Assembly (NCBI GenBank): GCA_025055235.1 | Contig: JANWYN010000120.1 | Span: 1 to 64,000, forward strand | Reading direction: 5' to 3' | DNA length: 64,000 nucleotides | DNA from: Candidatus Roseilinea sp. | Lineage (GTDB): Bacteria > Chloroflexota > Anaerolineae > J036 > Brachytrichaceae | Shown: in pieces, positions 4,562 to 62,041 of the stretch | Layout of the letters: the number at the start of each line of letters is the position of its first letter | How positions within the stretch are numbered: position 1 is the first letter of the stretch | Notes under the pieces: generated by a model | The model's database searches: none | The model's input: the letters and a program-made list of their open reading frames with translations, nothing else | Told to the model about the DNA's origin: nothing | Program-made: the position numbers and the translations under genes

Positions 4562-4633
4562 ATCGTCCTGCGTGTTGCGTCCTGCGTCTTGCGTCCCACG
4601 TCTTACGCTTCACGTTTTGCACTTCACGAGTTC
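4562..4633. repeat. Heptamer array (TGCGTCT-type units)
   Basis: About ten degenerate 7-bp units (TGCGTGT, TGCGTCC, TGCGTCT, TGCGTCC, CACGTCT, TACGCTT, CACGTTT and so on). The rest of the 4287-4780 gap holds only the transposase remnant and an AT-rich stretch (about 4680-4740) that is likely the promoter region of the IclR gene. Confidence 0.85.
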
Positions 4634-4780
4634 CGTCTCGGTTCAGGCAAACGATGAGGCGGGGCAGCGAGTGGCCGAGTTGCAAAATACGCGATTGGAT
4701 TTACCATACTGGAAATATAGTTTAGTTATCTGAACGCACAAGTCAGCCAAGTTACACGCGAGATCAATCGGAGAGCAAAG

Positions 4781-5623
4781 ATGGGCCAAACGCAAACTCT
4801 GGCACGAGAGATGGCCGAGGAGGATGATCGGCCGACCGGTATTCTGCTATCCCTCCGGCGCGGCTTGCGCGTGCTCGAAGCGATTGCTACAAGCAACGGC
4901 GCAGCGACGGCGAAATGGCTGAGCCAGGAGACCGGCATCAAGATCGGCACGTGCTACCACATCCTGCGCACGCTGGAAGACGAAGGATATGTGGTGCGGC
5001 TACCGGGTAGCCGGTTCGGGCTGGGGAGCCGCGTTGCGTTTCTACACGACAACTTTCGCGCCCATCTGGCGCCGCCGCAAGAGCTGCTGGACATTCTCTC
5101 GCAGTTGCACGCCGAGGTGGGCGAGACGACGTACATCTCCGGCTGGTATGGCGACAACATCGTGCTGCAGCGCTATCTGGAGGGCGTGAACGCGGTGCAC
5201 GTGCGCTCGCTGGAGATTGGCTACGCCGGCTTCGCTCACGCGCGTGCGTCGGGCAAGGCGATCCTGGCCTTTTTGCCGGAGGGGCGCGTGCGCGCCTACC
5301 TGGCCACGCATCCGCTCACCCGCCGCACGGCCAACACCATCACCGACGCCGACCAGTTCATCGAACACCTCAGACACACCGCGAATCAAGGCTACGCCGT
5401 GGACCGCGAAGAATTCGCCGACGGCGTATGCTGCGTTTCAGCCGCCATCTTCGACCGCAGCGGGTTTCCGGTCGGCGCCTACACCATCTCGCTCCCGGCC
5501 AACCGCTTCGAGGAGAAGGTGGAGGCACTGGCCGGCGCGACGAAGCGAGCGGCGATCCAGGCGTCCGTGGCGCTGGGGTTCTTGGGCACATACCCGCCTC
5601 AGTCGCCGCTGCTGAAGCGCTGA
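4781..5623 (+). CDS. IclR-family transcriptional regulator
   Basis: Predicted 280-residue DNA-binding regulator. A winged helix-turn-helix spans about residues 22-85 (GLRVLEAIATSNGAATAKWLS ... YHILRTLEDEGYVVRL), and the C-terminal IclR effector domain spans about 95-270 (TYISGWYGDNIVLQRYLEG; HARASGKAILAFLPE). ATG 4781 is preceded by GGAGAG at about 4770. It lies just upstream of a sugar ABC importer and an enolase-superfamily dehydratase, so it most likely controls that cluster in response to a sugar acid or its breakdown product. An operator could lie in the AT-rich segment upstream, but I cannot define one. Confidence 0.93.
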   Translation: MGQTQTLAREMAEEDDRPTGILLSLRRGLRVLEAIATSNGAATAKWLSQETGIKIGTCYHILRTLEDEGYVVRLPGSRFGLGSRVAFLHDNFRAHLAPPQELLDILSQLHAEVGETTYISGWYGDNIVLQRYLEGVNAVHVRSLEIGYAGFAHARASGKAILAFLPEGRVRAYLATHPLTRRTANTITDADQFIEHLRHTANQGYAVDREEFADGVCCVSAAIFDRSGFPVGAYTISLPANRFEEKVEALAGATKRAAIQASVALGFLGTYPPQSPLLKR

Positions 5624-5644
5624 GACTGAACCAGTCCACATTCG

Positions 5645-5656
5645 AAGGAGGTGATC
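5645..5656 (+). promoter_or_regulatory. SD-like leader element AAGGAGGTGATC
   Basis: The 12-base element AAGGAGGTGATC, complementary to the 16S rRNA 3' end, lies 90 bases before the real start of the solute-binding gene, which has its own SD (GGAGG, about 5736-5740). Closely similar elements occur at the same relative place before the two other binding-protein genes (21359, 36899). Confidence 0.5.
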
Positions 5657-5745
5657 CACGCGAACGAATGCCCGACACGTCCGATTCCCTGACGCTTTCT
5701 CAGATTCGCTGCTCTCTTCATTCGAATCCATTTCGGAGGTTTACC

Positions 5746-7137
5746 ATGTTCCGTGAACGCACTCATGCTTCGAGCAAATGCGCTGTGGCCGTCGTGGCCG
5801 CATCCACAGTCATCATTGCGGCCTGCGCTGCCCCTGCTACCACGCGCGTCATCGAGGTGACCAAAGAAGTCGTCGTAACCGCAGCGCCCGGCGCCGGCGC
5901 GATAGATCCCAACGCCAAGTTTCAGCTCACCTATCTGAACATCTGCTTCCCGTCGTCCATGGCCGTGACCGACCTGATGCTCGCGGCTTTCGGCGCCAAA
6001 TACCCGAACGTAGACGTCAAAGTGGACTGCGCGCAGGGCGACTACGCTGAAGGTGTCTTCGCGCAGGCTGCTGCAGGCAACCTGCCCGATGTGATCTTTT
6101 CGGCAGACCTGTTCACCGTGCCGTTCGTGAACGCCGGCGTGCTGCTCGACCTGGAGCAATTCGACAAGGCCGACGACTCGTTCAGCTTCGACGACATCTA
6201 CCCGAACATCCTCGCGCTTGGCCAAGTGCCCGGCAAGCCCGGCACATACATGATCCCGGCGTCATGGGACAGCGTGCAGATGTACTACAACAAGGACCTG
6301 TTCGAGAAGTCGGGTGCGCCCGTGCCAACCGACGAGTGGACCTGGGACGACCTGATCGCGGCCTGCAAGATCGTGCAGGAGAAGAACCCCGGCGTGTACT
6401 GCGTCGCCAACGGCGGCACCGAGGGCTGGGATTGGTGGGCCTACTTCATCCCCTGGATCGTTGGCCACGGCGGTTATCCGGTGAGCGAGGACTTCAAGAC
6501 CTCGACGTTCAGCTCGCCCGAGTCGCTCGCCGGCATCCAAGCCTACGTGGACTTGTGGACCAAGCACAAGGTGACCATCCCCATCGGCGAGCAATTGCCG
6601 AGCGGGCGCGATGGCTGCTTCATCGCCGGCAAGTGCGCCACCTACTTCATGATCCCCGGCTTGATGAAGACCTTCCGCGAGAAGATCACCGACTTCACCT
6701 GGGATGTAGTGCAGATGCCTGCGTTGCCCAAGAAGCGCGTTACCGGCATGGGCACGTATGGCTACGGCATCAGCAAGGACAGCAAGAACCCGCAGGCAGC
6801 CTGGGAGCTGATCAAGTTCCTGGCTTCACCGACCGGCCAGCGCCTGAGCCTAACGAACTACATCGGCGTGCCGTTCCTCAAGTCCATGGCGAACGACCCG
6901 GTGTATGAGCGCCTGCAACCGCCGCCGCAGAACATCCAGGCCTTCCTCAAGGGTGGTGAAATCGGCATCTTCCCGCCCAACGGCTACCCGCCCAAGTGTG
7001 GCAGCCTATACGCCGGCTTGATCAACCAGACCATCCGGACGGCGCTCGAAGAGTCTATCCGCGGCGTCAAGACGGTCGAACAAGCCTTCAAAGATGCCGA
7101 CGCGGAAATCCAGTCCTGCCTAGATACGGCGCAGTAG
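5746..7137 (+). CDS. Sugar ABC transporter substrate-binding lipoprotein (family 1)
   Basis: Predicted 463-residue extracellular sugar-binding protein anchored as a lipoprotein. The signal peptide ends in the lipobox IIAAC (Cys about 28), followed by the linker TRVIEVTKEVVVTAAP, then a MalE/UgpB-like two-lobe domain. ATG 5746 was chosen because of GGAGG six bases upstream and because it gives a proper signal peptide; the open frame extends back to 5428, and ATG 5668 would hide the signal. It is first in an operon with two permeases, downstream of an IclR gene. There is no ATPase gene nearby, so a shared MsmX/MalK-type ATPase elsewhere is assumed. The sugar is unknown. Confidence 0.92.
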   Translation: MFRERTHASSKCAVAVVAASTVIIAACAAPATTRVIEVTKEVVVTAAPGAGAIDPNAKFQLTYLNICFPSSMAVTDLMLAAFGAKYPNVDVKVDCAQGDYAEGVFAQAAAGNLPDVIFSADLFTVPFVNAGVLLDLEQFDKADDSFSFDDIYPNILALGQVPGKPGTYMIPASWDSVQMYYNKDLFEKSGAPVPTDEWTWDDLIAACKIVQEKNPGVYCVANGGTEGWDWWAYFIPWIVGHGGYPVSEDFKTSTFSSPESLAGIQAYVDLWTKHKVTIPIGEQLPSGRDGCFIAGKCATYFMIPGLMKTFREKITDFTWDVVQMPALPKKRVTGMGTYGYGISKDSKNPQAAWELIKFLASPTGQRLSLTNYIGVPFLKSMANDPVYERLQPPPQNIQAFLKGGEIGIFPPNGYPPKCGSLYAGLINQTIRTALEESIRGVKTVEQAFKDADAEIQSCLDTAQ

Positions 7138-7148
7138 CATTTGCTTTT

Positions 7149-7181
7149 AGCCCTCACAGGGTTGCGAACCCTGTGAGGGCT
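7149..7181 (+). terminator. Perfect 15-bp intercistronic hairpin after binding-protein gene
   Basis: AGCCCTCACAGGGTT (7149-7163) and its exact reverse complement (7167-7181) are separated by GCG. It lies 11 bases after the binding-protein stop and 15 bases before the permease start. No U-tract follows, so partial termination or 3'-end protection that keeps binding-protein mRNA in excess over permease mRNA is more likely than full termination. Confidence 0.8.
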
Positions 7182-7196
7182 TAATGCGAAGGAACC

Positions 7197-8129
7197 ATGG
7201 TCACACAACCGATGACGACGCGCCCACGCCAGATGCGCCACAGCAGGCTTTACTGGCACGAGACGATTCAGGGCTACGCATTCATCATGCCGGTCGTGCT
7301 CGGCCTGATCCTGTTCGTCTTCGGGCCGATGATTGCCTCGCTATACATCAGCTTTACCGAATACAGCATTCTGCAGGCGCCCGTCTGGGTCGGCTTGCGC
7401 AACTACGTGGACATGTTCACGCGCGCGCCGCTGCGGGTGATGCATTCGCTGTGGGTGACGGTCATCTACGCCGCATGCTCCGTGCCGCTCATCTTGGTGA
7501 CTGCGCTGGGCGCAGCCCTGCTGCTGAACCAAAAGCTGCGCGGCATGCGCTACTTCCGCACTGCTTTGTATATCCCCACCGTCGTGCCGCTCGTCGCCAC
7601 GGTGTTCGTCTGGGGCTGGTTGCTGAATCCGTCGCTCGGCCTGGTCAACGCCACGCTCAAGCTGCTCGGCTTACCGCCCGGCACATGGCTCTCCGAGCCG
7701 AACACGGCTCTGCCGACGTTGATCCTCCTAAGCGTCTGGGGGATCGGCGGATCTATGGTGGTCTTCCTGGCCGGCCTGCAGGGCATTCCCGAATCGCTCT
7801 ACGAAGCCGCCAAAATTGACGGCGCCAACGAGTGGCGCACCTTCTGGTACATCACCCTGCCCCAGCTTTCGCCAACGATTTTCTTCTTGCTCATCACCGG
7901 CATCATCTCGGCGTTCCAGTACTTCGCGCCGGCGTTCATCCTCACCCGGGGCGGCCCGTTGTTCGCAACGTATTTCTACAACCTAAATCTCTATGAGAAA
8001 GCGTTCCGCTGGCAGTTCATGGGCTTGGCCTCGGCTATGGCCTGGCTGCTGTTCATCATCATCATTGCGCTCACCTACATCTTGTTCCGGTCATCCGATG
8101 CCTGGGTGCACTATGAGGTGAAACGATGA
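7197..8129 (+). CDS. Sugar ABC transporter permease (MalF type)
   Basis: Predicted 310-residue inner-membrane permease with six hydrophobic segments. The EAA loop that docks on the ATPase reads EAAKIDGANEWRTFWYITLP (about residues 200-220). It is the first permease of the IclR-linked importer, and its stop overlaps the next start (ATGA). The upstream spacer carries a strong hairpin. ATG 7197 follows GAAGGAACC, a weak ribosome-binding site. Confidence 0.93.
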   Translation: MVTQPMTTRPRQMRHSRLYWHETIQGYAFIMPVVLGLILFVFGPMIASLYISFTEYSILQAPVWVGLRNYVDMFTRAPLRVMHSLWVTVIYAACSVPLILVTALGAALLLNQKLRGMRYFRTALYIPTVVPLVATVFVWGWLLNPSLGLVNATLKLLGLPPGTWLSEPNTALPTLILLSVWGIGGSMVVFLAGLQGIPESLYEAAKIDGANEWRTFWYITLPQLSPTIFFLLITGIISAFQYFAPAFILTRGGPLFATYFYNLNLYEKAFRWQFMGLASAMAWLLFIIIIALTYILFRSSDAWVHYEVKR

Positions 8130-9031: not shown

Positions 9032-9140
9032 ATTCGCCTATCGTCGGTGCGAGCCATCCCCCTACTCGCACTTGCAGGGGCGCGCTCGAGATGATCGGGC
9101 GCGCTCCTGCGCCTTTCTGGGTTTGGCACAAAATAGCCCC

Positions 9141-10235: not shown

Positions 10236-10241
10236 CACCTC

Positions 10242-12044
<1,803 letters not shown>

Positions 12045-12162
12045 ACCGCCGACTCTACGTCTGAACCGGGCGCGGTGTCAATCGCAGCGGCGGACTTTGC
12101 CGAAGCGGCATTTGCGCCCGGAGGCGGGGAATGATAGAACGGGCGACTACGGAACTGACATC

Positions 12163-13937: not shown

Positions 13938-13962
13938 CGACCCTTCGCGTGGAGTGCATGCG

Positions 13963-15420: not shown

Positions 15421-15686
15421 GGGTGCATTTCAAAATGGCGGAACGCGAATCGGCTAGCAGCGGTATTCGCTTCAGTCGCTGGGATAAATCCCAGCGCTGG
15501 GCATACGGGCAAGCCGCGCGCATCCCGCCCCTTTCAGTCCAGGCGTTTACGCCGGGGCGGGTCTGCAAGGGTGTATTCGCGCACAGGAGCAAAATTTACA
15601 ACGGTGGGGCGTGGACTCCGTTTCGCGCCCATACGTGCCGCGAATAAGGCAGATTCATACGTCTGCCCCCGTTAGCGAATGCGCCC
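15421..15686. repeat. MITE-like dispersed repeat region
   Basis: This 15376-15720 gap has no gene. It starts with GGGTGCATTTC (15421), contains an internal GGGTGTATTCGC (15569-15580) and ends with GCGAATGCGCCC (15675-15686). These are variants of the terminal sequences seen at 33174, 47850, 49980 and 63094. It may be two nested copies. No clear target duplication is visible. Confidence 0.6.
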
Positions 15687-15720
15687 ACGTGGTGGCCGGC
15701 AGTACGGTATCCTCGCGTCC

Positions 15721-17219
15721 GTGCCGATCATCCACTGGTTTCGCCGCGACCTGCGGATCGCCGACAACACCGCCTTGAACGCTGGCGTGCGCGACGGCGG
15801 CGGCGCCGTCGTCCCTGTCTTCGTGCTGGATGACAAGCTGCTGAAAGGCCGTGACATTGCGCCGGTGCGCGTGCAGTTCATGCTGGAGAGCCTGCGCGCG
15901 CTCGACGAAGGGCTGCGCCAACGCGGAGCGCAACTGGTCGTGTTGCGTGGTGATCCGGCGGCTGAGCTGGTGCGATTGGCGCAGGCGACCGGCGCCGACG
16001 CCGTGTATTTCAACCGCGACTACACGCCGGCCGCCCGCCGGCGCGACAAGCGCGTCACCCAAGCGCTGCAATCCGCCGGCGTGCGCGTCGAGTCGTTCAA
16101 AGACCTGGTGATCTTCGAGGAAGACGAGTTGCTCACCACCGCCGGCCAGCCCTACACTGTGTTCACGCCCTACAAGAAGGCCTGGCTCTCGCGCATCACG
16201 CCGATCGCGCCGGAGATTGGGGATTGGAAATTGGCACCCCTCCCCAATCTCCAATCCCTAATCTCCAATCTCCAATCTCTCGTCCCTCATCTTCCTTCCG
16301 CAACCGACCTTGGCTTCACCAACACGCAGGACGGCCCGAAAGGCGGCGAGCCGGAAGCGATGCGCCTGCTCAAGCGGTTCAGGGACAGCGGCGCGCTGAA
16401 AGCGTATTCCACCCAGCGCGACTTCCCCGGCATCGAGGGCACGTCGCGCTTGTCGCCGCACTTGCGCTTCGGCACGATCTCGCCGCGCCAGTGCTATGCC
16501 GCCGCCGTCTCGACGCTCAGCTACGCCTTCCCGGCCAAGCGCAGCTTCTCGCCGGCGGCCAGCGATGCGAAGAAGGAAGGTGCCGATGCGTGGATCAGCG
16601 AGCTGATCTGGCGCGAGTTCTATATGCAGATCTTGTATCACTTCCCCCACGCCAACCACGCCAACTTCAACCGCGCCTACGATGCGGTGCGCTGGGGCAG
16701 CGGCGACGCCGCGCTCGACGAGGAACGCTTCGCCGCGTGGTGTGAAGGGCGCACCGGCTATCCGATCGTGGACGCAGCGATGCGCCAGCTCAACCAGACC
16801 GGCTGGATGCACAACCGCACCCGCATGATCGTGGCGTCTTTCCTGACCAAAGACCTGCTCTTAGATTGGCGGCTGGGCGAGAGTTACTTCATGCGCAAGC
16901 TGGCCGATGGCGACCCGGCGTCCAACAACGGCGGCTGGCAGTGGGCGGCCAGCACCGGCACCGACGCCCAGCCCTACTTCCGCATCTTCAACCCCAAGCT
17001 GCAGAGCGAGCGCTTCGACCCCGACGGCGCGTACATCAAACGCTGGGTGCCGGAGCTTGCGCGCGTGCCGGTCGAATACATCCATGAGCCGGCCGCTATG
17101 CCACCGCTGGTCCAGGCGCAAGCCGGCTGCATCATCGGCCGGGACTACCCCGCGCCGATCGTGGATCACGCCGAGCAGAAGGAAGAGATCCTGCGCCGCT
17201 TCAGGGCGGTCAAGGCCGG

Positions 17220-17223
<4 letters not shown>
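15721..17223 (+). CDS. phr: Deoxyribodipyrimidine photolyase (cryptochrome/photolyase family)
   Basis: Predicted 500-residue light-dependent DNA-repair flavoprotein. The N-terminal alpha/beta antenna domain begins [16 protein letters not shown] (about 3-18). The FAD-binding helical domain carries [46 protein letters not shown] and [15 protein letters not shown]. The window shows an in-frame heptamer array at 16213-16281 that encodes the linker between the two domains ([20 protein letters not shown]). GTG 15721 was chosen because the conserved N-terminus starts there; ATG 15679 in the same frame would add 14 residues. Its 3' end overlaps carB on the other strand by four bases. Confidence 0.94.
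16213..16281. repeat. Two-armed heptamer array inside phr
   Basis: GAGATTG, GGGATTG, GAAATTG, then a short spacer, then CCCCAAT, CTCCAAT, CCCTAAT, CTCCAAT, CTCCAAT. The second arm is close to the reverse complement of the first, so it can fold as a hairpin, and it is translated in frame. Confidence 0.9.
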
Positions 17224-20702
<3,479 letters not shown>

Positions 20703-21327
20703 GTCGGGATGCAATGTTAAACGATGGCAGCGTGGCGACCAAGCCGAACCGCCGCCCCTGCTTACGCATGCGCTCGAATCTCGTCTGCGTCTAATTGCTC
20801 AATCAAAGGCAGCGCGGCCATGAAGGGAATGGGCCGCGCTGAAAGAGGGGGCGATGGGCAATCCGTGCGGTAGCCGCCGGCTTCACGCCTGTGGCCGGTG
20901 GGATGACCATCGCGCCGGGCTTCGACAAGCTCAGCCCGCGGAAGCCTGTCGAAGCCCGCCTGTCCCCTTAGCCCGGTGGTTTGGCGCCGGGCTTCCTTCC
21001 GAGCACAGAGGTGCTGTGCAACAAACAGCGCGCAAGCGGGCATCCAGAGACCATGCATGGCTAGATTCCCGCTCCCCGCCTTCGCGAGGACAAGCTTCGC
21101 GGGAATGACATGCGTATGTCGTTTGGAGGCGAATTAGCCCACATTGGTTACGGCCACGCAATTGGTATGAGCTGAACCGTTGCGCGCAGAAACTGGAAGA
21201 ACACGCACCGGCATGCGTTTCAGGCGTTGCCTTTTCAACTTGGCGCACTCTGCTGTTCACATCCTTGAAAGGAACTTTTCTAGTTTGAAATCAGAGTTTG
21301 CCCAGCCGATTTGCGCAATCGAAGGCT
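20703..21327. other. Gene-free intergenic region with palindromic repeats
   Basis: No convincing gene in about 620 bases. It holds an 11-bp inverted repeat GGGCTTCGACA / TGTCGAAGCCC (20917-20927 and 20947-20957) of the type common as extragenic palindromes. There is also ATTCCCGC / GCGGGAAT (21065-21072 and 21099-21106) around CCTTCGCGAGG, and a small GCACAG...CTGTGC hairpin near 21002. The right edge carries the promoter of the next operon. Confidence 0.7.
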
Positions 21328-29562: not shown

Positions 29563-30306
<744 letters not shown>

Positions 30307-34097: not shown

Positions 34098-34160
34098 GTC
34101 TGCGTCTTTCGTCTTGCGTCCTGCGTCTTTCGTCTTTCGTCTTGCGTCTCGCGTCGTGAC
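34098..34160. repeat. Heptamer array (TGCGTCT / TTCGTCT units)
   Basis: About nine units such as TGCGTCT, TTCGTCT, TGCGTCC and CGCGTCG directly after the SDR stop, upstream of the ROK regulator promoter. Single-armed. Confidence 0.85.
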
Positions 34161-38439: not shown

Positions 38440-38443
38440 GAAT

Positions 38444-38535
38444 TCGCGTTACGTTTTGCGTATTGCGTATCACGCATCGCGTGTTGGCACGTGATGCGTG
38501 GTACGCGATACGCGACACTTGACACGTGGCACTTG
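38444..38535 (+). terminator. 28-bp intercistronic hairpin built from heptamer repeats
   Basis: Arms 38456-38483 and 38488-38515 pair over 28 positions (a few G-U pairs) around the loop TTGG; the core is GCGTATCACGCATCGCGTG. It lies inside a TTGCGTA/GACACGT heptamer array filling the gap between binding-protein and permease genes, in the same place as the hairpins of the other two importers. Confidence 0.85.
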
Positions 38536-38569
38536 ACACGTGACGCAGCGCACACGACCGGAGGGTGCG

Positions 38570-41131: not shown

Positions 41132-41137
41132 AGCGTC

Positions 41138-41245
41138 CAATCTTTCATCTTTCATTTCTCATTGATCACAATGACCAATGACCAATTACCAGTTACCAAT
41201 TACAAATGACGAATGACAGATGAAAGATCAAAGATGACAAATCCT
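41138..41245. repeat. Two-armed heptamer array
   Basis: TTTCATC / TTTCTCA units, then GACCAAT, TACCAGT and TTACCAA units, then GAATGAC, AGATGAA and AGATCAA units. The right arm partly reverses the left. Fills the gap before the aldehyde dehydrogenase gene. Confidence 0.85.
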
Positions 41246-41253: not shown

Positions 41254-42681
41254 ATGAGCGATCCAAAAAAGTTCCTCATCGGCGGCCAGTGGCGCGCCGG
41301 AAATAAGACATTCGAATTGAAGTTCCCGTTCACCGGTGAAGTCGTCGCCGAGATTTGCGTCCCGAGCGACGATGACCTCGAAGCGGCCGTGCAAGCCGCA
41401 CAGCGCGGCGCGCGGATCATGCGCAAGCTGCCGGCGCACGAGCGTTCGGCCATCCTGCGTCGCCTACACGCGCAGATGGAAGCGCGCACCGAGGAGTTGG
41501 TGAACGTGCTGGTGATGGAGGGTGGCAAAACGAAGAAGGCCGCGCGTGGCGAGGTCGCGCGCGCCAAGCAGACCGTCTTCGTTGCCTCTGAGGAAGCGCG
41601 GCGCATCCCCGGCGAGGTCATCAACATGGACTGGACGAAGGACGGCGAGAACCGCATCGGCATCGTGCGGCGCTTCCCGCTAGGCGTCATCCTGTGCATT
41701 GCGCCGTTCAACTATCCGCTCAACCTAGCCTGCCACAAGGTGGCGCCGGCGCTGGCAGCCGGCAACGCCTTCATCCTCAAGCCAGCCAGTGCCACGCCGC
41801 TCTCGGCGCTCTTGCTGGGCGAGATGCTGCTGGAGGCCGGCGCACCGCCCGAGGCCGTCAACGTCGTGACGTGCAGCGGCGCGCAAGCCGAAAAGCTGGT
41901 GCGCGACGAGCGCATCGCCATGTTCTCCTTCACCGGCAGCAGCGAGGTCGGCTGGCACCTCAAAAGCGTATGCGGGCGCAAGCGCAGCGCGCTGGAGCTG
42001 GGCGGCAACGCCGCGGCCATCGTGCACGAGGACGCCAACATCGGCTATGCCGCCAAGCGCATCGCCTTCGGCGGGTTCACCAACGCCGGCCAGAACTGCA
42101 TCAGCGTGCAGCGCGTGCTCATCCATCGCCCAATCTACAATGAGGCGGTCGAGACGCTGCTCGACGAAATCAACGCGCTGAAGGTGGGCGATCCACGATT
42201 GGAGGAAACCGACGTCGGCCCGATGATCACCGAGCGTGCCGCAATGCAGGCCGAGGCGTGGGTGGAAGAGGCGTTGGCCCAAGGCGCGCGCAAGCTGTTG
42301 GGCAACGGCCGCCAGGGCGCCCTGCTCCATCCCACCGTGCTGAGCGACGTGACCCGCGAGATGAAGGTGAGCTGCCAGGAGGTGTTCGCGCCGGTGCTCA
42401 CCGTCAGTCCCTACGACACGTTCGAGGAAGCCATCGAGCTGGCCAACAGCACCGACTACGGCCTGCAAGGCGGCGTGTTCACGCGCGACGTGGGGCGCAT
42501 CATGAAAGCCTACGACGAGATCGAGGTGGGTGGCCTGCAGGTGAACGATGTGTCTACCTTCCGCATAGATCACATGCCCTACGGCGGCGTGAAGGCCAGT
42601 GGCATGGGCCGCGAAGGCGTCAAGTACGCCATCGAAGAGATGACCGAGCCGAAGCTGATGGTGATCAATTTGAATGCGTGA
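41254..42681 (+). CDS. Aldehyde dehydrogenase (lactaldehyde/sulfolactaldehyde/GabD-like)
   Basis: Predicted 475-residue NAD(P)-dependent aldehyde dehydrogenase. The catalytic Cys is about 282 in NAGQNCISVQRV, the general base Glu about 248 in LELGGNAA, and the cofactor motif FSFTGSSEVGWHL about 225. The best-looking relatives by eye are lactaldehyde and succinate-semialdehyde-type enzymes. Within this island it could oxidise a three-carbon aldehyde from the aldolase step, such as lactaldehyde, glyceraldehyde or sulfolactaldehyde. No good SD precedes ATG 41254; a repeat array does. Confidence 0.9.
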   Translation: MSDPKKFLIGGQWRAGNKTFELKFPFTGEVVAEICVPSDDDLEAAVQAAQRGARIMRKLPAHERSAILRRLHAQMEARTEELVNVLVMEGGKTKKAARGEVARAKQTVFVASEEARRIPGEVINMDWTKDGENRIGIVRRFPLGVILCIAPFNYPLNLACHKVAPALAAGNAFILKPASATPLSALLLGEMLLEAGAPPEAVNVVTCSGAQAEKLVRDERIAMFSFTGSSEVGWHLKSVCGRKRSALELGGNAAAIVHEDANIGYAAKRIAFGGFTNAGQNCISVQRVLIHRPIYNEAVETLLDEINALKVGDPRLEETDVGPMITERAAMQAEAWVEEALAQGARKLLGNGRQGALLHPTVLSDVTREMKVSCQEVFAPVLTVSPYDTFEEAIELANSTDYGLQGGVFTRDVGRIMKAYDEIEVGGLQVNDVSTFRIDHMPYGGVKASGMGREGVKYAIEEMTEPKLMVINLNA

Positions 42682-42683
42682 GA

Positions 42684-42860
42684 TGTTGCATGTCGCACGT
42701 TACACGTTACACGTTGCAAGTTGCAAGTTGCAGGTGCAGGTTTCACGTTTTGCGTCTTGCGTCTCACGTCCGGCATCGCGCGTCTTCCGTCGCATGACAC
42801 GCGACACGTGACACCCTACACCTGACACCTGATCCCTGACCCCTGCCCCCTGACTGCCGA
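42684..42860. repeat. Long composite heptamer array
   Basis: About 25 units: ACACGTT, GCAAGTT, GCAGGTG, TGCGTCT, GACACGC, GACACCT, GATCCCT and GACCCCT families in succession up to nine bases before thrC. Left and right parts are partly inverted. Confidence 0.85.
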
Positions 42861-42868
42861 AACGCCTC

Positions 42869-44194: not shown

Positions 44195-44247
44195 GAGCAA
44201 ACAATAATCAGCAACCAGCGACCAACGACCAGCGACTAACAACCACA
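44195..44247. repeat. Heptamer array (CAACGAC / CAGCGAC units)
   Basis: CAGCAAC, CAGCGAC, CAACGAC, CAGCGAC, TAACAAC units ending at the start codon of the next gene. Confidence 0.75.
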
Positions 44248-45414: not shown

Positions 45415-45470
45415 ACCCAACTTCCGCTTTACGTATTGCGTATTGCGTCCTTCGTATCGCGCAATGCGTC
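45415..45470. repeat. Short heptamer array (TTGCGTA units)
   Basis: TTTACGT, ATTGCGT, ATTGCGT, CCTTCGT and similar units in the convergent gap after the MenC-like gene. Confidence 0.7.
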
Positions 45471-46336: not shown

Positions 46337-47270
46337 AGCTTGGGGAGGTTACCAGCTTTGCCGCCAGCCAATCGGCCATCTGCTTCATCTCCTTGTCGAA
46401 GAGGATGACGCTGAGGTGAGTGGCTTGCGAGACGAGGAGCAGTTCTCGTTCTGGCTCGGACGCCTCGTATAGCCACTTGGCGTTGATGGGCGGCACAGCC
46501 ACGTCGCACTTGCCGTGCAAGAACATCTTGGGGCGCCGGCCAATCGCGCGGACGGCGTTCAATGTGTCGAAGCGCGCGATCATCTCATACAAGCTCTCGC
46601 CGAACCACGCGCCGTTCATGCTCCGCCATTCGGCCCACATCTTGGGCAGCGACTGGTAGCGCAGCAAGGTGAGATTGCGCGGCAAGCATACCAGCCCGAG
46701 CGATTCGCGGGCGATCGTCATGCGCGTGACCGGTGGGAGCTTGACCGGCGTGGAGATCGTGACGAGCGCGGCCACACGCTCGTCGTACGCTGCGAGATCG
46801 GCCACCTGATTGCCGCCGAAGCTGATGCCAATGGCGCCGACGCGCCGCACGCCGGGTTGGTTGCACAGCCAGTCGAGCGCCGCGCGCGCCGCGCAGCGCG
46901 CGTTGTCCACTGTGCAGGGCACGGACGTGAATTCGCCGTGTCCGGGCGGATCCACCGTCAGCACGGCAATGTTGCGTTCGATGAGCCGGCGGAAGAGCAG
47001 CCACTTGAACGCATGCCGGTTGTCCCCGGCGCCGCATACGAGCAGCACGACTGCGCCGCTCCACGTGTGCGGCTGCAGCCACGTGCCCGGCTGACGCGCG
47101 TCTGCCGCCTGGTGCTGTAACTGCTCAGCCCGCTCAGGCGGTATTTTGAATTGCTGGATGAGCGCGCTTGGCACTTCTAGCCGCGCCGGTGGAATATAAA
47201 CGGTGCGAACCGAATAGGGCGCTTCTTCCGACGGCGCGAGGAAGCGCTGCGTAAGCGTGACGACCGACAT
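46311..47270 (-). CDS. Alpha/beta hydrolase (possible acyl or polyester esterase)
   Basis: Predicted 319-residue alpha/beta-hydrolase. It has the oxyanion region VVLLVCGAGDNRHAFKW (about 75), VDPPGHGEF (about 107), nucleophile elbow GISFGGNQ (Ser about 144), the acid after FLHGKCDVAVPP (about 267) and a C-terminal His in SQATHLSVIL (about 296). ATG 47270 was chosen; the frame is open further upstream but would run into the tRNA-Ile gene 57 bases away. It probably forms an operon with the Rieske gene. Substrate unknown. Confidence 0.85.
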   Translation of the reverse strand: MSVVTLTQRFLAPSEEAPYSVRTVYIPPARLEVPSALIQQFKIPPERAEQLQHQAADARQPGTWLQPHTWSGAVVLLVCGAGDNRHAFKWLLFRRLIERNIAVLTVDPPGHGEFTSVPCTVDNARCAARAALDWLCNQPGVRRVGAIGISFGGNQVADLAAYDERVAALVTISTPVKLPPVTRMTIARESLGLVCLPRNLTLLRYQSLPKMWAEWRSMNGAWFGESLYEMIARFDTLNAVRAIGRRPKMFLHGKCDVAVPPINAKWLYEASEPERELLLVSQATHLSVILFDKEMKQMADWLAAKLVTSPSYEPIRTGA

Positions 47271-48040: not shown

Positions 48041-48044
48041 GACA

Positions 48045-49970
48045 CTATTCACCTAATCCGTCCTTGATCGCCTCGGCCACAGGTCGCGGCACTACTTTGG
48101 CCAACTCCTCCACGCTGGCCGCTCGAATCGCCTCGATCGAACCAAAGGTCGTGAGCAGCTTCTTCCGGCGCGCCGGGCCGACACCCTGCAGCGCATCGAG
48201 CTGCGAGGCCAGGCCGATCTTCTCGCGTTGCCGGCGGTGGCCGGTGAGGCCGAAGCGATGTGCCTCATCGCGGATGCGCTGCACCAGGAAGAAGCTCTGC
48301 GCGTTGCGCGGTAGCAAGATCGCGTCGGCCTTGCCCGGCATGAAGATCTCCTCGTTCTGCTTGGCCAGCGACACGACCGGCACGATGTGCGCCAGGTCGA
48401 ACTCGCGCAACACCTCGACCGCGACGCCAAGCTGCCCTTTGCCGCCGTCAATGATGACCAGGTCGGGTAGCAAAGCCCATGTTGGGTCTTCCTTCCGGCC
48501 AGGGGCCAGGGGTCGGGGTTCGGGGGCCAGTTCACTGATCCCTGCCCCCTGATCCCTGACCCCCAACTGGGAATCTTTCCATCGCTGAAACCGTCGGCGC
48601 AGCATCTGGCGCAGGCTTTCGAAGTCGTTCGGGCCGGCGATGCCCTTGATGTTGAATCGGCGATAGTCGCTCTTCTTCGGCACGCCATGCACGAACACCA
48701 CCATGCTGCCGACGATGGCCGCGCCCTGCGTGTTGCTGATGTCGTAGCACTCGATGCGCACCGGCAGCCGCGGCAGGTCGAGCGCCTCCTGCAGTTCCTT
48801 CAGCACTGCCTCCTGGCGTACGCTGTCCTCACGCCACTGCGCCTTCAGCGTTGCGAGCTGCTCCTGCGCGTTTTGCCGCGCCAGCTCGATCAGGCTGGCG
48901 TCGGCGCCGGCCTGCGGCGTACGAATCTTCACCGCGGTGCCACGCTTCTGCTTCAGCCAGTTCTCGATGATGTTGGCCTCTTCGACCTGTTCGGGCAACA
49001 ACACCTCCGGCGGCACATAGGCCGCTTCGTCGTAGAAGCGCTTGAGGAAGGCATCGAGCACGCTCTGGTCGTCCTCACCCTCTGCACCGTCCAGCACGAA
49101 GTACTCCTGCCCGAGCAACTTGCCGCCGCGGATGAACAGCACTTGCACGCACGTCTCGCCTTCGTCGCGGGCGAACGCGATCACGTCCTGATCGGTCCCT
49201 GCCGAGCTGACGATGCGCTGCTTTTCGATGACATGCTCGAGCGCCTTGAGCTGATCGCGATACTCGGCCGCCTTCTCGAACTGATAGGCGTTCGCCGCGC
49301 GCTCCATGCGCGCCCGCACGTCGGCGATCACCTGTTCGCTCTTGCCCTCCAGGAAGTCGCACAAGCGCTGGATGTTGGCGCGATATTCCGCCCGGCTGAT
49401 GGCGCCGATGCACGGGCCGCTGCACAGCTTGATATCGTAGTACATGCAGGCGCGCGTGTCGTGGCCGGTGATCACGCGGTCGCAGTTCAAGAAGGGGAAC
49501 ATCCGGCGCAACGCATCGCGCGTGGCATACACTGCTTTGGCGCTGGAGTACGGCCCGTAGTAGCGCGCGCCGTCGCGCTCGATCCGCCGCGTGACCGTGA
49601 CGGTCGGGAAGTCGTCCTGCCAGGTCACCTTGAGATACGGATAGCGCTTGTCGTCCTTGAGCCGGATGTTGTAGCGCGGGCGATGCTTCTTGATCAGCTC
49701 GGCTTCCTGGATCAGCGCTTCCAGATCGCTGCCGCGCACCACAAACTCGATGCGCGCGATCTCCTTGACCATGCGGCCGGTCTTAGGGTAGGCGGCCCAG
49801 GTGTTGGGGTTGAAATAGGAGCGCACGCGGCTGCGCAAATTCACCGCCTTGCCGACGTAGATCACCTCGCCCCGGCTGTCATAGAACAAGTAGCAACCAG
49901 GCAACGCCGGCAGATTCTTGACGGTCGCCTCGAGATGTTCGGGCACGGACACATGTTCTATTTTAGCCAT
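48045..49970 (-). CDS. uvrC: Excinuclease ABC subunit C, with repeat-encoded insertion
   Basis: Predicted 641-residue nucleotide-excision-repair nuclease. The GIY-YIG domain is N-terminal (LPGCYLFYDSRGEVIYVGKA, about 20-40), the UVR helix pair RANAYQFEKAAEYRDQL-like is at about 215, and the RNase-H-type 5' nuclease domain has YDISNTQGAAIVGSMVVF. A C-terminal helix-hairpin-helix pair reads LQGVGPARRKKLL. A heptamer array at 48497-48572 encodes roughly 25 extra residues (QLGVRDQGAGISELAPEPRP) before PDLVIIDGGKGQL. ATG 49970 fits the family start; a MITE-like element lies immediately upstream. Confidence 0.95.
   Translation of the reverse strand: MAKIEHVSVPEHLEATVKNLPALPGCYLFYDSRGEVIYVGKAVNLRSRVRSYFNPNTWAAYPKTGRMVKEIARIEFVVRGSDLEALIQEAELIKKHRPRYNIRLKDDKRYPYLKVTWQDDFPTVTVTRRIERDGARYYGPYSSAKAVYATRDALRRMFPFLNCDRVITGHDTRACMYYDIKLCSGPCIGAISRAEYRANIQRLCDFLEGKSEQVIADVRARMERAANAYQFEKAAEYRDQLKALEHVIEKQRIVSSAGTDQDVIAFARDEGETCVQVLFIRGGKLLGQEYFVLDGAEGEDDQSVLDAFLKRFYDEAAYVPPEVLLPEQVEEANIIENWLKQKRGTAVKIRTPQAGADASLIELARQNAQEQLATLKAQWREDSVRQEAVLKELQEALDLPRLPVRIECYDISNTQGAAIVGSMVVFVHGVPKKSDYRRFNIKGIAGPNDFESLRQMLRRRFQRWKDSQLGVRDQGAGISELAPEPRPLAPGRKEDPTWALLPDLVIIDGGKGQLGVAVEVLREFDLAHIVPVVSLAKQNEEIFMPGKADAILLPRNAQSFFLVQRIRDEAHRFGLTGHRRQREKIGLASQLDALQGVGPARRKKLLTTFGSIEAIRAASVEELAKVVPRPVAEAIKDGLGE
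48497..48572. repeat. Two-armed heptamer array inside uvrC
   Basis: CCAGGGG, CCAGGGG, TCGGGGT, TCGGGGG, CCAGTTC, then CTGATCC, CTGCCCC, CTGATCC, CTGACCC: G-rich arm followed by a C-rich arm, translated in frame. Confidence 0.9.
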
Positions 49971-50129
49971 CCTGTTGATGGGTGTATTTCCTGCAAAATG
50001 CCCGGCGTCTGAAGTCGCAGGCAATTTGCGGAGAAGACGGCGTGCGCCGGCTTTGCCATGCGTTGCGTGCGGATTCATCCGCTGCGCAAATCCGCGCAAT
50101 GCCCCGTTAGAAAGTGCACCCCTGTTGAT
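49971..50129. mobile_element. MITE-like element with perfect 9-bp target-site duplication
   Basis: Element about 49980-50120, starting GGGTGTATTTC and ending GAAAGTGCACC. It is flanked by the direct repeat CCTGTTGAT at 49971-49979 and 50121-50129 (the match extends by G, two bases further). No transposase. It separates uvrC (-) from the enolase-superfamily gene (+), one base away from the uvrC start codon. Confidence 0.75.
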
Positions 50130-53328: not shown

Positions 53329-54072
53329 GTGCAGTTGGAATCACGGCGCGAATTGACCGAGCGCCAACTCAAGCCTTACTTTTCAGCGGAGCAAGCGTCG
53401 GTGCTGGCCCAGGTCATCACCGACGCCTACCAAGACCTGGTCAAGACCAGCGACTTCAACGAGCTGAAGGCAATCGTGCGCGAACTGGCCGAGGCACAGA
53501 AGCGCACCGAACAGCGGGTAGATACGCTGGCCATGCGTATGGAAGAGCTGGCCGAGGCGCAGAAGCGCACCGAGCAGCGGGTAGACACGCTGGCCATGCG
53601 CATGGAAGAGCTGGCCGAGGCACAGAAGCAAACGGCCGACGAAATCCGCATCCTGGCCCGCGGCCTGAACGACACCCGCACCGAACTAGGCGGGCTGTCG
53701 CGCAGCTTCGGCTACGCGCTGGAGAACGAGGCGTATCACATGTTGCCGGCGTTTCTGGCAGACAAATATGGCTTGAGCGTGAGCGAGCGCCTGATACGCA
53801 CCGAGATCGGGGGTGAAGAGATCAACCTGTTCGGCCGGGCAAAGCGCGACGGCCAAGAGGTGCTGATCGTGGGGGAGGCCAAGCTGCAATTGGCGAATCC
53901 GCAGCGGGAGGAAGAGACGCTGGCGCAACTGGCAGACAAAGTGGCGGTTGTCAGAAAGGCCATGCCGCAAATAGAGGTTGTGCCGCTGCTGATCACCCAC
54001 TACGCGCGGCCGGCGTTTTTGGCCCGTGCCAAAGCCCAGGGCATCATCGTCGCACAGAGCTATGAGTGGTAG
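53329..54072 (+). CDS. Coiled-coil protein with PD-(D/E)XK nuclease-like C-terminus
   Basis: Predicted 247-residue protein of the DUF3782-like group. Residues 40-110 form a coiled coil made of a tandem repeat: a 21-residue unit ([20 protein letters not shown] plus Q) occurs twice, nearly identical at DNA level. The C-terminal domain (about 120-247) has a restriction-endonuclease-like core: Glu in [19 protein letters not shown] and the GEAK triad in [11 protein letters not shown]. Starts with GTG; TAGAAT lies six bases upstream. Proteins of this group are common in Chloroflexota and cyanobacteria, and their role is unknown. Overlaps the next gene by 11 bases. Confidence 0.78.
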
Positions 54073-54886: not shown

Positions 54887-54891
54887 TTCAC

Positions 54892-54963: not shown

Positions 54964-54970
54964 CAACTCC

Positions 54971-56224: not shown

Positions 56225-56228
56225 GTCA

Positions 56229-57014: not shown

Positions 57015-57045
57015 GATGTCGTCCTTCGTTTTAGGCTGCGCCGGC

Positions 57046-57907: not shown

Positions 57908-57937
57908 ACGGAGATTATAGAGTCGCTTGGCTATCGC

Positions 57938-58963: not shown

Positions 58964-58977
58964 GTTGAATCTGCTCA

Positions 58978-59013
58978 GAAGAGATTAGAGATTGTCGATT
59001 CCAATCTTCCATT
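58978..59013. repeat. Short heptamer-like repeat
   Basis: AGAAGAGATTAGAGATTGTCG and CAATCTTCC blocks, a reduced two-armed array, fill the gap between the two dehydrogenase genes. Confidence 0.55.
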
Positions 59014-60047
59014 CACCACCGCAACGCCACAGCGTGATAGTGCTCCTTGTCGTTGAGCAAACCATCGTACATTGCCTTGGCCTGATGGGCGTGCGCGAAG
59101 TGCGAGACGATCTCATCCAGCTTGAGCCGCCCGCTCTCCAACAGCGCGATGAGCAGGCGCATTGCGCGCGGTACGGTGTAGGGGAACTTTTCGCGCGGCT
59201 CCCAACCGATTGCGCTGCCGTGCGCGCCGATCAGTGTGATCGAGCGGCCGTGCAGGTCCCAGTAGAAGTCCACTTCACCGGCGATGCCGCGCGGGCTGCC
59301 CACCATCACTACGCGCCCACCATCGGTGACGATGTTCATCGCCGTCTTCACCGCGTTCGGGAAGCCGGTCGCATCCACCACGATGTCGGGTAACTGGCCG
59401 GAGTTGGCCGCGCGCAGCTTGTCCTTGAGCTGTGGATCATCCGGCGCGAAGGTGACGACGCCGTGTACCTTCTCCGCCAGCGTGCGCCGATTGCTCACAC
59501 CGTCTATGCCGATGAGCGGGTGCGCGCCGGCGGCGGCGTAGAGCCGCATCGCGATCTGGCCGATCGTCCCCAGGCCCATGACGGCAACACACTGGCCGAT
59601 GATCTGTTCGCTCTGCACGAGCGCGGCCAATGGGAAGCGCGCCAACACCGTGAAGGCGGCGACCTGCGCCGGCACGTGCTCGGCAATGGGAAAGACCAAT
59701 GCGTCTGGCTGCTCCACATCTACGACGGCGTGCGTCTCATGCCGGCTGGGCCAGACCACGCGATCGCCGACTTTGAAGCGCGTCACGCCTTCGCCGACGG
59801 CGACGATCCGCCCTACTCCGCTATAACCCGGCGTGAACGGCCACTTCGGCCATGACCGTGTTGGGTCGTGTAGCCACTGATGCACGCCGGTGTAAACGGC
59901 CAGTTCGGTGCCGGCGCTGATTGCGCTGGCTTCGCATTCGATCAGCACTTGGCCGTGCGCCGGCGGCGGCACGTCGTATGTCTCGATAGTAATCGTATAG
60001 GGCGCGGGCATCACCACCCGCGTTCCCTGGGTTGAGATAGGCGTCAT
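59013..60047 (-). CDS. Zinc-binding-type alcohol dehydrogenase-like protein (MDR)
   Basis: Predicted 344-residue MDR oxidoreductase without the structural-zinc Cys lobe. GroES-like N-terminus: AHGQVLIECEASAISAGTELAVYTG, where the catalytic Cys position is Ser, so a BchC/Bacteriochlorophyllide-type or non-metal MDR is possible. Rossmann motif AVMGLGTIGQIAMRL (about 150-164). ATG 60047 was chosen; the longer frame to 60107 reads through heptamer-array DNA and would add 20 odd residues (CQLPVTNYQT). Substrate unknown. Confidence 0.82.
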   Translation of the reverse strand: MTPISTQGTRVVMPAPYTITIETYDVPPPAHGQVLIECEASAISAGTELAVYTGVHQWLHDPTRSWPKWPFTPGYSGVGRIVAVGEGVTRFKVGDRVVWPSRHETHAVVDVEQPDALVFPIAEHVPAQVAAFTVLARFPLAALVQSEQIIGQCVAVMGLGTIGQIAMRLYAAAGAHPLIGIDGVSNRRTLAEKVHGVVTFAPDDPQLKDKLRAANSGQLPDIVVDATGFPNAVKTAMNIVTDGGRVVMVGSPRGIAGEVDFYWDLHGRSITLIGAHGSAIGWEPREKFPYTVPRAMRLLIALLESGRLKLDEIVSHFAHAHQAKAMYDGLLNDKEHYHAVALRW

Positions 60048-60057
60048 GGACAGCGGA

Positions 60058-60175
60058 TCAGTTTGGTAATTGGTAACTGGTAACTGGCAATTGATATTCG
60101 TCAGCAATCACTAGTCAACAGTTACCAATTACCAGTTACCACTTACCATTTACGAGTTACTAGTCACCGGTTACA
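60058..60175. repeat. Two-armed heptamer array (GGTAACT / AGTTACC)
   Basis: GGTAATT, GGTAACT, GGTAACT, GGCAATT, a 32-base spacer, then AGTTACC, AATTACC, AGTTACC, ACTTACC, ATTTACG, AGTTACT. Clear inverted arms between the dehydrogenase and isomerase genes. Confidence 0.9.
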
Positions 60176-61178
60176 AAGCAACCAGATCGGCCAGCTCCGT
60201 CTTGAGGTAACGCACCGTGCGCTCGAATTGGTCGCGCTCGTAGCGTTCACATTCGTCCGCGGATGCGCCGCGTTCCCACGGCGTCTGCCACGGCGCATCG
60301 GCCGGCTGTATGTGCCGGGCGAGGAAGCGGAACAGCGGCAGCATGGCGCGGATGTCGCGCGGCGGATAGCCCCGCCACCACTGATCCTCGTACAGCCGGA
60401 TATGGCGCGCATTCAACGCCGCCAGCTCGATATGCCACGTCGCGCCCGGGGCGATCTCGCGCAGCAGCGCCAACATGGCGCGCCAGTCAATGCAACCCTC
60501 GCCGATGCCCGCCCGCACCAGGTTATAGCCACTGGGCGTCGGATGGATGGTGTAGTCCTTGATGTGGACGTTGAAGATGCGCGCGCCCAGACGGCGCGCA
60601 AACTCATACGGCTCCTCGGCCACCGCCAGCGGATTCACCACATCGAGCGTGACGCCAACGCGCGGCCCACCGGCCTGGCACAGCACCACCAGATCGTCGG
60701 AGTTGACGTCCTGATGATTCTCGATGGCCAGCACCATATCCAGCTCGTCGAGCAGCGGGTATACGGCCAGCAGCTTGGCGATCATCTCGCGCATGTGGGC
60801 GTTCCAATCCGGCGCATAGATGGCGCGCGCGCCCTCGAGAAAGTCGCTGACCATGCAACGCACCACGCGCGCACCGGCGCGCTTGGCCAGCGGCAGCCAG
60901 GCGCGCGCTTGTTCCACATCCAGCACCGGTAGGTCGAGCACATAGGTCATGCCCTTCGATCGCAGAAGCTCGCCGAAGCGATCCATGCCGGCTTCGCTGT
61001 GGTCGGGAAGGATGTCGAGCGGAAACTCGACGCTGGTCATGCCGTGCTGCGCTGCTAATTCGACGAGGTCGAGGCCGTTCATGGGGTTTGGACAAGCGCA
61101 CCGGCCCCCACGTTTCAGGAATCCACAAGTAAACGGGAAGGTATAGCAGGAGAGTCCAAAGGCAACCTTGGCGTTCAC
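60171..61178 (-). CDS. Sugar phosphate isomerase/epimerase (TIM barrel)
   Basis: Predicted 335-residue xylose-isomerase-like protein. Starts near KVAFGLSCYTFPFTCGF; GTG 61178 is preferred, but ATG 61082 further in and a TTG at 61217 are possible. Likely metal ligands: Glu in MVLAIENHQDVNSDD (about 163), Asp in GVTLDVVNPLA (about 193) and His in IFNVHIKDYTIHP (about 217). WHIELAALNARH lies near 276. It is in line with the two MDR genes and may share a polyol or cyclitol pathway with them. Confidence 0.78.
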   Translation of the reverse strand: MNAKVAFGLSCYTFPFTCGFLKRGGRCACPNPMNGLDLVELAAQHGMTSVEFPLDILPDHSEAGMDRFGELLRSKGMTYVLDLPVLDVEQARAWLPLAKRAGARVVRCMVSDFLEGARAIYAPDWNAHMREMIAKLLAVYPLLDELDMVLAIENHQDVNSDDLVVLCQAGGPRVGVTLDVVNPLAVAEEPYEFARRLGARIFNVHIKDYTIHPTPSGYNLVRAGIGEGCIDWRAMLALLREIAPGATWHIELAALNARHIRLYEDQWWRGYPPRDIRAMLPLFRFLARHIQPADAPWQTPWERGASADECERYERDQFERTVRYLKTELADLVAL

Positions 61179-61247
61179 AGCGAGAGCCAATATTAGCCCG
61201 GTGCGAGCGAAAGTCAAAACGAAGCGTTTTGCCTACAATTCGAACCG

Positions 61248-61910
61248 ATGAAACTCGCCCCTTCGATCTACACAGCGGACTTCGCGCGGCTGGGCGAACA
61301 GGTTAAGGCCGCAGAGGAAGCCGGCGCCGACTGGATTCACCTCGACGTGATGGATGGCATGCTCGTGCCCAACATCACATTTGGGCCGGCCGTCTGTGAG
61401 GCCGTGCGGCGGAGCACATCGCTGCCCTGCGAGGCGCACCTGATGGTGCAGGCACCGGAGCGCTTCTTTCAGGATTACAAGGACGCCGGCATGCAACGCA
61501 TCATCGTGCACGTCGAGGCCTGCCCACACTTGTATTCGACGATCCAGGCGCTGCGCAAGCTCGATCTGCAAGTCGGCATCACGCTCAACCCGCTCACGCC
61601 GCTTAGCGCGATCGAAGAGGCGCTGCCGCTGGTAGACCTGGTGCTGATCATGTCGGTCGAGCCGGGCTTCGGTGGCCAGGCCTATATCCCAGGCTCGACT
61701 CAGCGCATCCGGCGCATGCGCGAGATGCTGAACGCGGTCAACCCGAACGCCGAGCTGGAAGTAGATGGGGGCGTGAACGTGCACACCATCCGCGAAGTGC
61801 GCGACGCTGGCGCGAGCATCGCCGTCGTCGGCTCTGCGGTGTATTCGCCCAAGCACAGTGTGGCCGAAGGCATGGCAGCGTTGCGCAGGGCGCTGGGCTG
61901 TGAGCAGTGA
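61248..61910 (+). CDS. rpe: Ribulose-phosphate 3-epimerase
   Basis: Predicted 220-residue TIM-barrel enzyme interconverting ribulose-5-phosphate and xylulose-5-phosphate. Motifs: APSIYTADFARLGEQV, WIHLDVMDGMLVPNITFGP (metal His and Asp), CEAHLMVQAP, VLIMSVEPGFGGQAYIPG and EVDGGVNVHTI. TACAAT (61234-61239) ends eight bases before ATG and there is no SD, so the mRNA is probably leaderless. Divergent from the isomerase gene; followed by a heptamer array reaching into glk on the other strand. Confidence 0.95.
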   Translation: MKLAPSIYTADFARLGEQVKAAEEAGADWIHLDVMDGMLVPNITFGPAVCEAVRRSTSLPCEAHLMVQAPERFFQDYKDAGMQRIIVHVEACPHLYSTIQALRKLDLQVGITLNPLTPLSAIEEALPLVDLVLIMSVEPGFGGQAYIPGSTQRIRRMREMLNAVNPNAELEVDGGVNVHTIREVRDAGASIAVVGSAVYSPKHSVAEGMAALRRALGCEQ

Positions 61911-62041
61911 GCTGTGAGCTATGAGCTGCGAGCTGTGAGTTTTGAGTTCTGAGTTCTGACTTCTGAGTTCTGACTTCTGACTTCTGAAGTCTGGCTTTCT
62001 CAATTCTCAATTCTCAATTCTCAATTCTCAATTTTCAATTC
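61903..62041. repeat. Long heptamer array between rpe and glk
   Basis: GTGAGCT, ATGAGCT, GCGAGCT, GTGAGTT, TTGAGTT, CTGAGTT and CTGACTT families, then TTCTGAA, then five or so CTCAATT units. The right end supplies the last codons of glk (minus strand). Confidence 0.9.

Follow-up and report, generated by a model that had tools for sequence, protein, structure and literature searches.

In the draft genome of a Candidatus Roseilinea (Chloroflexota; G000; 3.99 Mb in 151 contigs), the opening 64 kb of a contig of 90.8 kb, hereafter called the window, carry many short arrays in which degenerate copies of a heptamer are often followed by copies of its reverse complement. We tentatively propose, with a confidence just short of even, that these arrays are dispersed degenerate heptanucleotide repeats, unusually active in one Roseilinea clade, which would be made or kept by DNA copying in a seven-base register. 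This proposal is supported because period 7 exceeds its neighbouring periods, units grade into each other and one array changes by a single unit at position 12010. It is also supported because inverted partners exceed their control in G000 and in its congener G006, the arms being alike within hairpins, and because both arms are replaced together, arrays are kept up at constant length and the same arms recur with unrelated loops and flanks. Throughout the text, G001 to G008 denote congeners of G000, and L-numbers the stretches read from the genomes.

Period-7 arrays in the window and in related genomes

We called arrays as merged lag-7 runs with a threshold of at least 15 matches in 21, and used 50 triplet-block shuffles as control. 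The window yielded 18 runs, against a shuffle mean of 0.86 and a maximum of 3, which bears out the array family seen in the initial annotation, with the reservation that run 46872-46902 was dismissed as GC-rich coding sequence. Tandem Repeats Finder gave a period of 7, 14 or 21 at most of these 18 places, and the units drift along arrays, for instance at 61882-62049 and 42681-42777. A palindrome scan found 8 hairpins (16212, 18569, 29892, 38445, 41140, 48509, 60066 and 61883), the last one being weak with 22 mismatches in 64. Six runs lie in genes, three of them in carB and one each in the genes of the photolyase, UvrC and an ABC-transporter ATPase; the earlier figure of seven arrays in open frames is fair if arms are counted. 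At 11963-12018 a period-8 array (TGACGACC) adjoins a period-7 array, and therefore the register is not always seven.

The genome-wide count rests on 831 kb of G000 holding 226 arrays, that is 272 arrays per Mb and 1.46% of the sampled bases. Periods 5, 6, 8 and 9 gave 1, 29, 24 and 53 per Mb, respectively (period 8 without shuffle control), periods 6 and 9 being probably raised by codons. The excess of period 7 had been predicted to extend across the genome, and it does: the first 464 kb of G000 contain 261 arrays per Mb versus 6.5 after shuffling. The G000 stretches outside the window come from contigs that appeared in match lists, often as matches to CCAATCT arrays, so that this family may be over-sampled.

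Among the congeners, G006 carries 148 arrays per Mb (81 arrays; the first 20 stretches evenly spaced, 8 more being orthologues of array-rich G000 stretches). Most other relatives are represented by small samples of 20 to 100 kb each. G001 has 57 per Mb (12 arrays), G008 26 (5), G005 20 (3), G002 9 (1), G003 0, G004 50 (3 in 60 kb) and G007 100 (2 in 20 kb). In other genera we counted 75 per Mb in G014 (6 arrays) and G015 (3), and 200 in G009 (4 in 20 kb), and no arrays in 20 to 100 kb each of G010, G011, G012, G013, G016 and G027. An assembly artefact is an unlikely source of the arrays, because G006 is one single 4.67-Mb contig and shows them too. GC skew over the 20 spaced G006 stretches revealed no clear replication origin.

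CarB of the window shares 86 to 93% identity with its counterparts in the eight congeners (best segments), and carB overall differs by 11% between G000 and G006. Trees of two stretches gave ((G000,G006),(G003,((G001,G008),(G002,G005)))), in which the array-rich G000 and G006 appear as one clade; a third tree, built on carB loci with unmatched flanks, placed G001 and G008 poorly.

Arrays are depleted in open reading frames (ORFs), which hold 108 of the 226 G000 arrays versus 89% of random intervals, and 33 of the 81 G006 arrays versus 85%. Here an array counts as inside when more than 80% of it lies within an ORF of 100 aa or more, the ORFs being selected greedily; this set is crude and overstates coding.

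Heptamer repertoire and two-armed hairpins

The initial annotation held that arrays share only their period and layout. This is contradicted by the units themselves, which are drawn from a limited repertoire common to relatives. The 226 G000 arrays represent 91 of the 1172 possible circular heptamer classes, the commonest being CGTCTTG (20 times), TCTCAAT (18), CATCAAT (16) and CCAATCT (11). In G006, 24 of 50 classes equal G000 classes, when letter shuffles lead one to expect 4.7 and none of 2000 shuffles reaches 24; in seven other relatives the figure is 12 of 27, with 2.5 expected. Phase-locked array ends were also considered: ends are unevenly phased (13 of 23 TTCTCAA runs start at TTCTCAA), and we set the idea aside because variant positions within the unit produce the same effect.

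Inverted partners within 130 bp, judged against the flanks of other arrays, occur at 47 of 121 G000 arrays (control 11 of 121) and at 22 of 54 in G006 (control 4), that is at about 40% of arrays in these two genomes. The two-armed design thus stands above chance in G000 and G006, and no such excess is seen in G001 (3 of 11, control 4). Hairpins detected by the palindrome scan number 35 for G000 (464 kb scanned), 19 for G006 (400 kb) and 2 for G001 (100 kb). When 20 G006 places similar to three G000 hairpins were inspected, 18 were hairpins with the same kind and order of arms and two were not; being chosen by similarity, this set is unsuited to testing arm order. The loops and flanks of the 18 are unrelated, in agreement with the spreading aspect suggested at the outset.

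Arms resemble each other more within a hairpin than between different hairpins of one family (p=0.0002 for the GAATTGA family; Fisher combined over eleven groups, p=0.001). At the ten hairpin sites common to G000 and G006, we compared the pairing of true arms with that of chimaeric ones. True arms pair clearly better at three sites at which the two species have different heptamers (window 18563, L115:4523 and L130:968), modestly better at three more and equally well at one; over all 19 species pairs they are better in 12 and worse in 4. At three of the ten sites the heptamer of both arms has been replaced together.

Arm order by family

Each arm was matched separately to a family, with one family per locus, over 104 loci; this total includes orthologous sites of several species, which the G000 count of 65 loci does not. 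Writing a:b for the strand as written first or second, several families are one-sided: GAGATTG 20:0, GAATTGA 18:0, GTCAGGG 7:0, GATGATT 3:0 and GACGCAA 3:0. GATGAAA shows the reverse order (0:7), GAGCTGT stands at 6:1, and GGTAATT (3:2), GTAACGT (4:7) and GTCGGGA (6:17) are mixed. Families differ in arm order in G000 alone (label permutation, p=0.00005), and GAGATTG is 4:0 in G014, another genus. The order of GATGATT is unsettled, as it becomes 3:5 with another family list and hairpins picked by complementarity. A universal rule placing the G-rich arm first is ruled out by GATGAAA and GTCGGGA. Neighbours in the same orientation within 70 bp are absent for GAGATTG, GAATTGA, GATGAAA and GGTAATT; the other six families have 16, versus 114 inverted pairs (double counts not removed).

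The fixed arm order of several families is new here. A literature search, mostly without subscription papers, gave no report on Roseilinea repeats and, among titles and abstract openings, none on arm order by family.

Site histories between species

Synteny is shared by array-rich and array-poor congeners, which allows the gain, decay, upkeep and replacement of arrays to be followed at individual sites. The hairpin in the ABC-transporter gene is present in G000, G001 and G008 and absent from G002, G003, G005, G006 and G007, G004 having an unrelated insertion at the site. Since G006, not G001, is the closer relative of G000, this distribution needs either transfer between species or repeated loss. 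We recognised no target-site duplication on comparing the filled site with the empty ones, which are diverged. Transfer between species appears to occur, because G006 and G008, which differ by more than 10% elsewhere, share an identical stretch of 72 bases at the L115:8774-8815 orthologue (L172, L174); the identity suggests that the transfer was recent.

Upkeep is best seen at carB 20152, where equal-length sequences show 0 mismatches of 28 to (TTGAGAA)4 in G000 and G006, 5 in G002 and G003, 8 in G001 and G008, and 10 in G005. Likewise, L130:6412-6485 differs from G000 at 1 of 74 positions in G006 and at 17 in G002. At such sites arrays are kept up at constant length in the array-rich G000 and G006 and are degenerate in array-poor congeners, although selection may be an alternative cause of the perfect stretches at carB 20152 and L130:6407. 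At the former site, the G006 orthologue of 20152-20197 (L010 / L154-L155) also carries a 48-bp GC-rich palindrome, in frame, inside the TTGAGAA array.

Other sites changed otherwise. At window 12010, G006 is seven bases, or one unit, shorter than G000. The carB region 19268..19423 is 96 bases shorter and devoid of array in G001, G002, G005 and G008, and 78 shorter in G003. L115:7968-8053 is an array in G000 and equal-length non-repetitive sequence in G003 and G006, which could reflect a conversion, its direction being unproven.

That arrays sit in frame inside core genes is borne out for carB, uvrC and the photolyase gene, and all 47 in-gene length differences (11 sites) are multiples of three, 11 of them being zero. 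Multiples of 21 had also been envisaged, and these account for 4 of the 36 non-zero differences, as do multiples of 7. The count excludes window 46872, which contains no array and shows a difference of 0, and 61882 (-54), where it is uncertain whether the sequence is coding; the L115 and L130 sites in the count were called coding by long ORFs, not by homologues.

Proposed mechanism and alternatives

Template switching at quasi-palindromes is a recognised mechanism, and we propose that it would act here together with slippage. Whole units would slip in a seven-base register, one hairpin arm would be copied onto the other by template switching, and stretches of array would occasionally be copied to new sites. 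Point mutation would let units drift from one family to another, and in genes frame-neutral products alone would survive. We infer copying between sites from the shared repertoire, and would ascribe the copying itself to replication or repair polymerases, without a dedicated enzyme.

Several observations weigh against this proposal. No donor was found for copying between sites, ten of the eleven groups in the arm-similarity test are not significant singly, and true arms pair slightly less well than chimaeric ones at three of the ten shared sites. Slippage alters length, whereas carB 20152 and L130:6407 are kept up without a change in length, and few of the non-zero in-gene differences are whole units. 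Family-fixed arm order is not predicted by slippage and template switching alone; with constant-length upkeep, it is left unexplained, and it constrains any mechanism that one would put forward.

An unlikely alternative is that each site slips independently, without copying between sites, shared heptamers resulting from mutational bias. Such a process would agree with the presence of arrays of this kind in distant phyla and with the local drift of units; it accounts poorly for the class overlap between G006 and G000, for inverted pairing with fixed arm order, and for an entire two-armed hairpin being present or absent at a single gene site, that of the ABC transporter. We give the same low probability to hairpins selected as RNA or DNA structures (terminators, mRNA stability, protein binding), whose sequence would be free as long as the arms pair. 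The depletion in ORFs, the joint change of arms at some sites and the non-heptamer hairpin that G001 and G008 have at the place of L115:7097 all speak for selection. Against it, the test used detects an inverted partner for fewer than half of the arrays, arrays occur inside carB, uvrC and the photolyase gene, pairing is quickly lost in congeners, and a free sequence predicts neither period 7 nor a shared repertoire.

Slightly less probable still is a dedicated machinery that would write and rewrite a heptamer repertoire as oriented inverted pairs, set the arm order, replace both arms and homogenise arrays length-neutrally, even in core genes. If true, such DNA writing in a seven-base register would differ from both simple slippage and transposition. 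As possible drivers we considered RVT_1 reverse transcriptases, Ku and IS200-like Y1 transposases, and none fits. RVT_1 has two matches in G000 and none in G006, G001 or G008, other polymerase families not being searched, and Ku is found in 0 of 31 genomes.

It is improbable that the arrays are mobile palindromes like the repetitive extragenic palindromes (REP), moved by IS200-type (RAYT) Y1 transposases. Y1_Tnp matches do occur in the array-rich G000 (2) and G006 (4), with one weak match each in G001, G003 and G008, and are absent from the array-poor G002 and G005, as well as from G007. However, G011, G016 and G027 also have such matches, and the 40 kb sampled from each of them are free of arrays. 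In five (L264-L268) of the seven Y1 loci read (L264-L269, L272) the gene is surrounded by other, GC-rich and non-periodic palindromes, and heptamer arrays are found at two (L264, L266), more than 700 bases from the gene and at about the expected density. Besides, the loops of the arrays are unrelated and no target rule was seen. The GC-rich palindromes near these RAYT-type genes look like a separate REP system of the genus; a repeat related to them is present both at L115:19517-19611 (within L115:19456-19660) and close to the Y1 gene in L267.

Least probable of all is a telomerase-like, templated addition of a heptamer to both 3' ends of a break followed by end joining, giving X-loop-reverse complement of X: it predicts family-fixed arm order, unrelated loops and the arrival of whole hairpins as at the ABC-transporter site, but it is disfavoured by the missing RVT_1 matches in G006, G001 and G008 and the missing Ku matches, by the family order mirrored between the arms at L129:18472-18605, and by the mixed arm order of GTCGGGA, GTAACGT and GGTAATT.

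Features of the window

The arrays are listed below. Apart from them, a 63-bp tandem repeat lies at 53485-53629 (2.3 copies, 93% matches), probably within coding sequence.

Table 1. Heptamer arrays and hairpins of the window (positions in the 64-kb stretch).
Position	Feature	Remarks
4563..4628	CGTCYTG array, intergenic	Tandem Repeats Finder, lag-7 runs
11963..12048	Mixed array, period 8 (TGACGACC) passing to period 7 (ATGATTG)	One heptamer fewer in G006
16212..16292	Two-armed GAGATTG / CAATCTC hairpin within photolyase gene (15679-17223, +)	
18566..18644	Two-armed GAATTGA / TCAATTC hairpin within carB (17220-20714, -)	Different heptamers in both arms in G006
19268..19423	AATTGAG array, then drifting CCGACTC / CTGACCT array, within carB	
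20152..20197	(TTGAGAA)4 within carB	Equal length but degenerate in five congeners
29888..29948	Two-armed GAGATTG hairpin within ABC-transporter ATPase gene (29563-30306, +)	Empty in 5 of 8 congeners
34098..34160	CGTCTTG array, intergenic	Tandem Repeats Finder, lag-7 runs
38442..38547	Hairpin with drifting GCGTATT / CACGTGA units, between two ORFs	Lag-7 runs, palindrome scan
41135..41243	Hairpin, outer arms ATCTTTC (pyrimidine arm first), inner CAATGAC / CAGTTAC units	
42681..42861	Array drifting from GTTGCAC to CGTCTTG, then TGACACC array, between two ORFs	
44199..44246	CAGCGAC array directly upstream of ORF start (44248)	
45420..45457	GCGTATT array	Lag-7 runs
48494..48568	Two-armed GGGGTCG / CTGACCC hairpin within uvrC (48045-50099, -)	
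60058..60171	Two-armed TTGGTAA / TTACCAA hairpin	Lag-7 runs, palindrome scan
61882..62062	Array drifting from GAGCTGT to GAGTTCT, GACTTCT and TTCTCAA; weak hairpin	

Comparison with known systems

The closest parallel, already pointed out in the initial annotation, is with the heptanucleotide repeats of cyanobacteria, known as short tandemly repeated repetitive sequences (STRR) or long simple sequence repeats, such as GGGGA(C/T)T in Nostoc PCC 7120 (PMC4692102). Like them, the Roseilinea arrays have a period of 7 and are degenerate, dispersed and mostly intergenic. The likeness held when we ran our call on 350 kb of a Trichormus plasmid, where period-7 runs occur at 43 per Mb and two of them make up a single two-armed hairpin; heptanucleotide repeats are also present in 50 kb of a Gloeothece plasmid. 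However, Roseilinea is six times denser than the Trichormus plasmid and has many arrays inside core genes. Of 13 cyanobacterial unit classes, 2 recur exactly in G000 (0.8 expected, p=0.17), a small overlap. Six published heptamer forms, not independent of each other, were also compared, and three of them match the G000 set exactly, to which 7.8% of all classes belong. Outside the genus, a hairpin of G009 at L249:1936-2057 has arms of 52 bp made up of GGGATTA / GGGATTG units, which come close to the GGGGATT repeats described in Nostoc.

In Xanthomonas, GGGAATC arrays form convergent pairs, 70 cases (186 arrays) in X. campestris and 75 (183) in X. axonopodis, and their length and sequence differ among close relatives (PMC4692102). 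Pairs facing each other in a fixed order are likewise found in Roseilinea for GAGATTG, GAATTGA and GTCAGGG, other families being mixed or reversed. Unlike the single G-rich family described in Xanthomonas, Roseilinea has at least 10 families, some with the pyrimidine arm first. In the tRNA-Leu(UAA) intron of Nostoc, the P6b stem-loop is built of the seven-base motifs TDNGATT or NNTGAGT, and its entire stem was swapped for the other class several times (PMC4476775). This is a heptamer-built hairpin at one functional RNA site, whereas the Roseilinea hairpins are dispersed in the genome. Dispersed heptamer arrays of a single family are also described for the TAACTGA repeats of Beggiatoaceae, with one inverted case (PMC4679880), and for the (GATAGRA)n satellites of Chloroflexus aurantiacus, which belongs to the same phylum as Roseilinea (PMC6749651).

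REP palindromes and bacterial interspersed mosaic elements (BIME), with their RAYT transposases, are dispersed inverted pairs as the present arrays are. Yet REP-like palindromes, also in these genomes, are GC-rich and non-periodic, and the heptamer arrays have no conserved body. Similarly, unlike in a miniature inverted-repeat transposable element, the arms are alike without any conserved body, and loops and flanks are unrelated.

Finally, heptamer repeats are over-represented in many bacteria, and the number seven is guessed in the literature to reflect the stretch of DNA that the polymerase holds (PMC4692102, PMC4679880). The Roseilinea arrays fit an old and widespread kind of repeat caught in an active state, in which seven-base slippage would be combined with hairpin-mediated copying.

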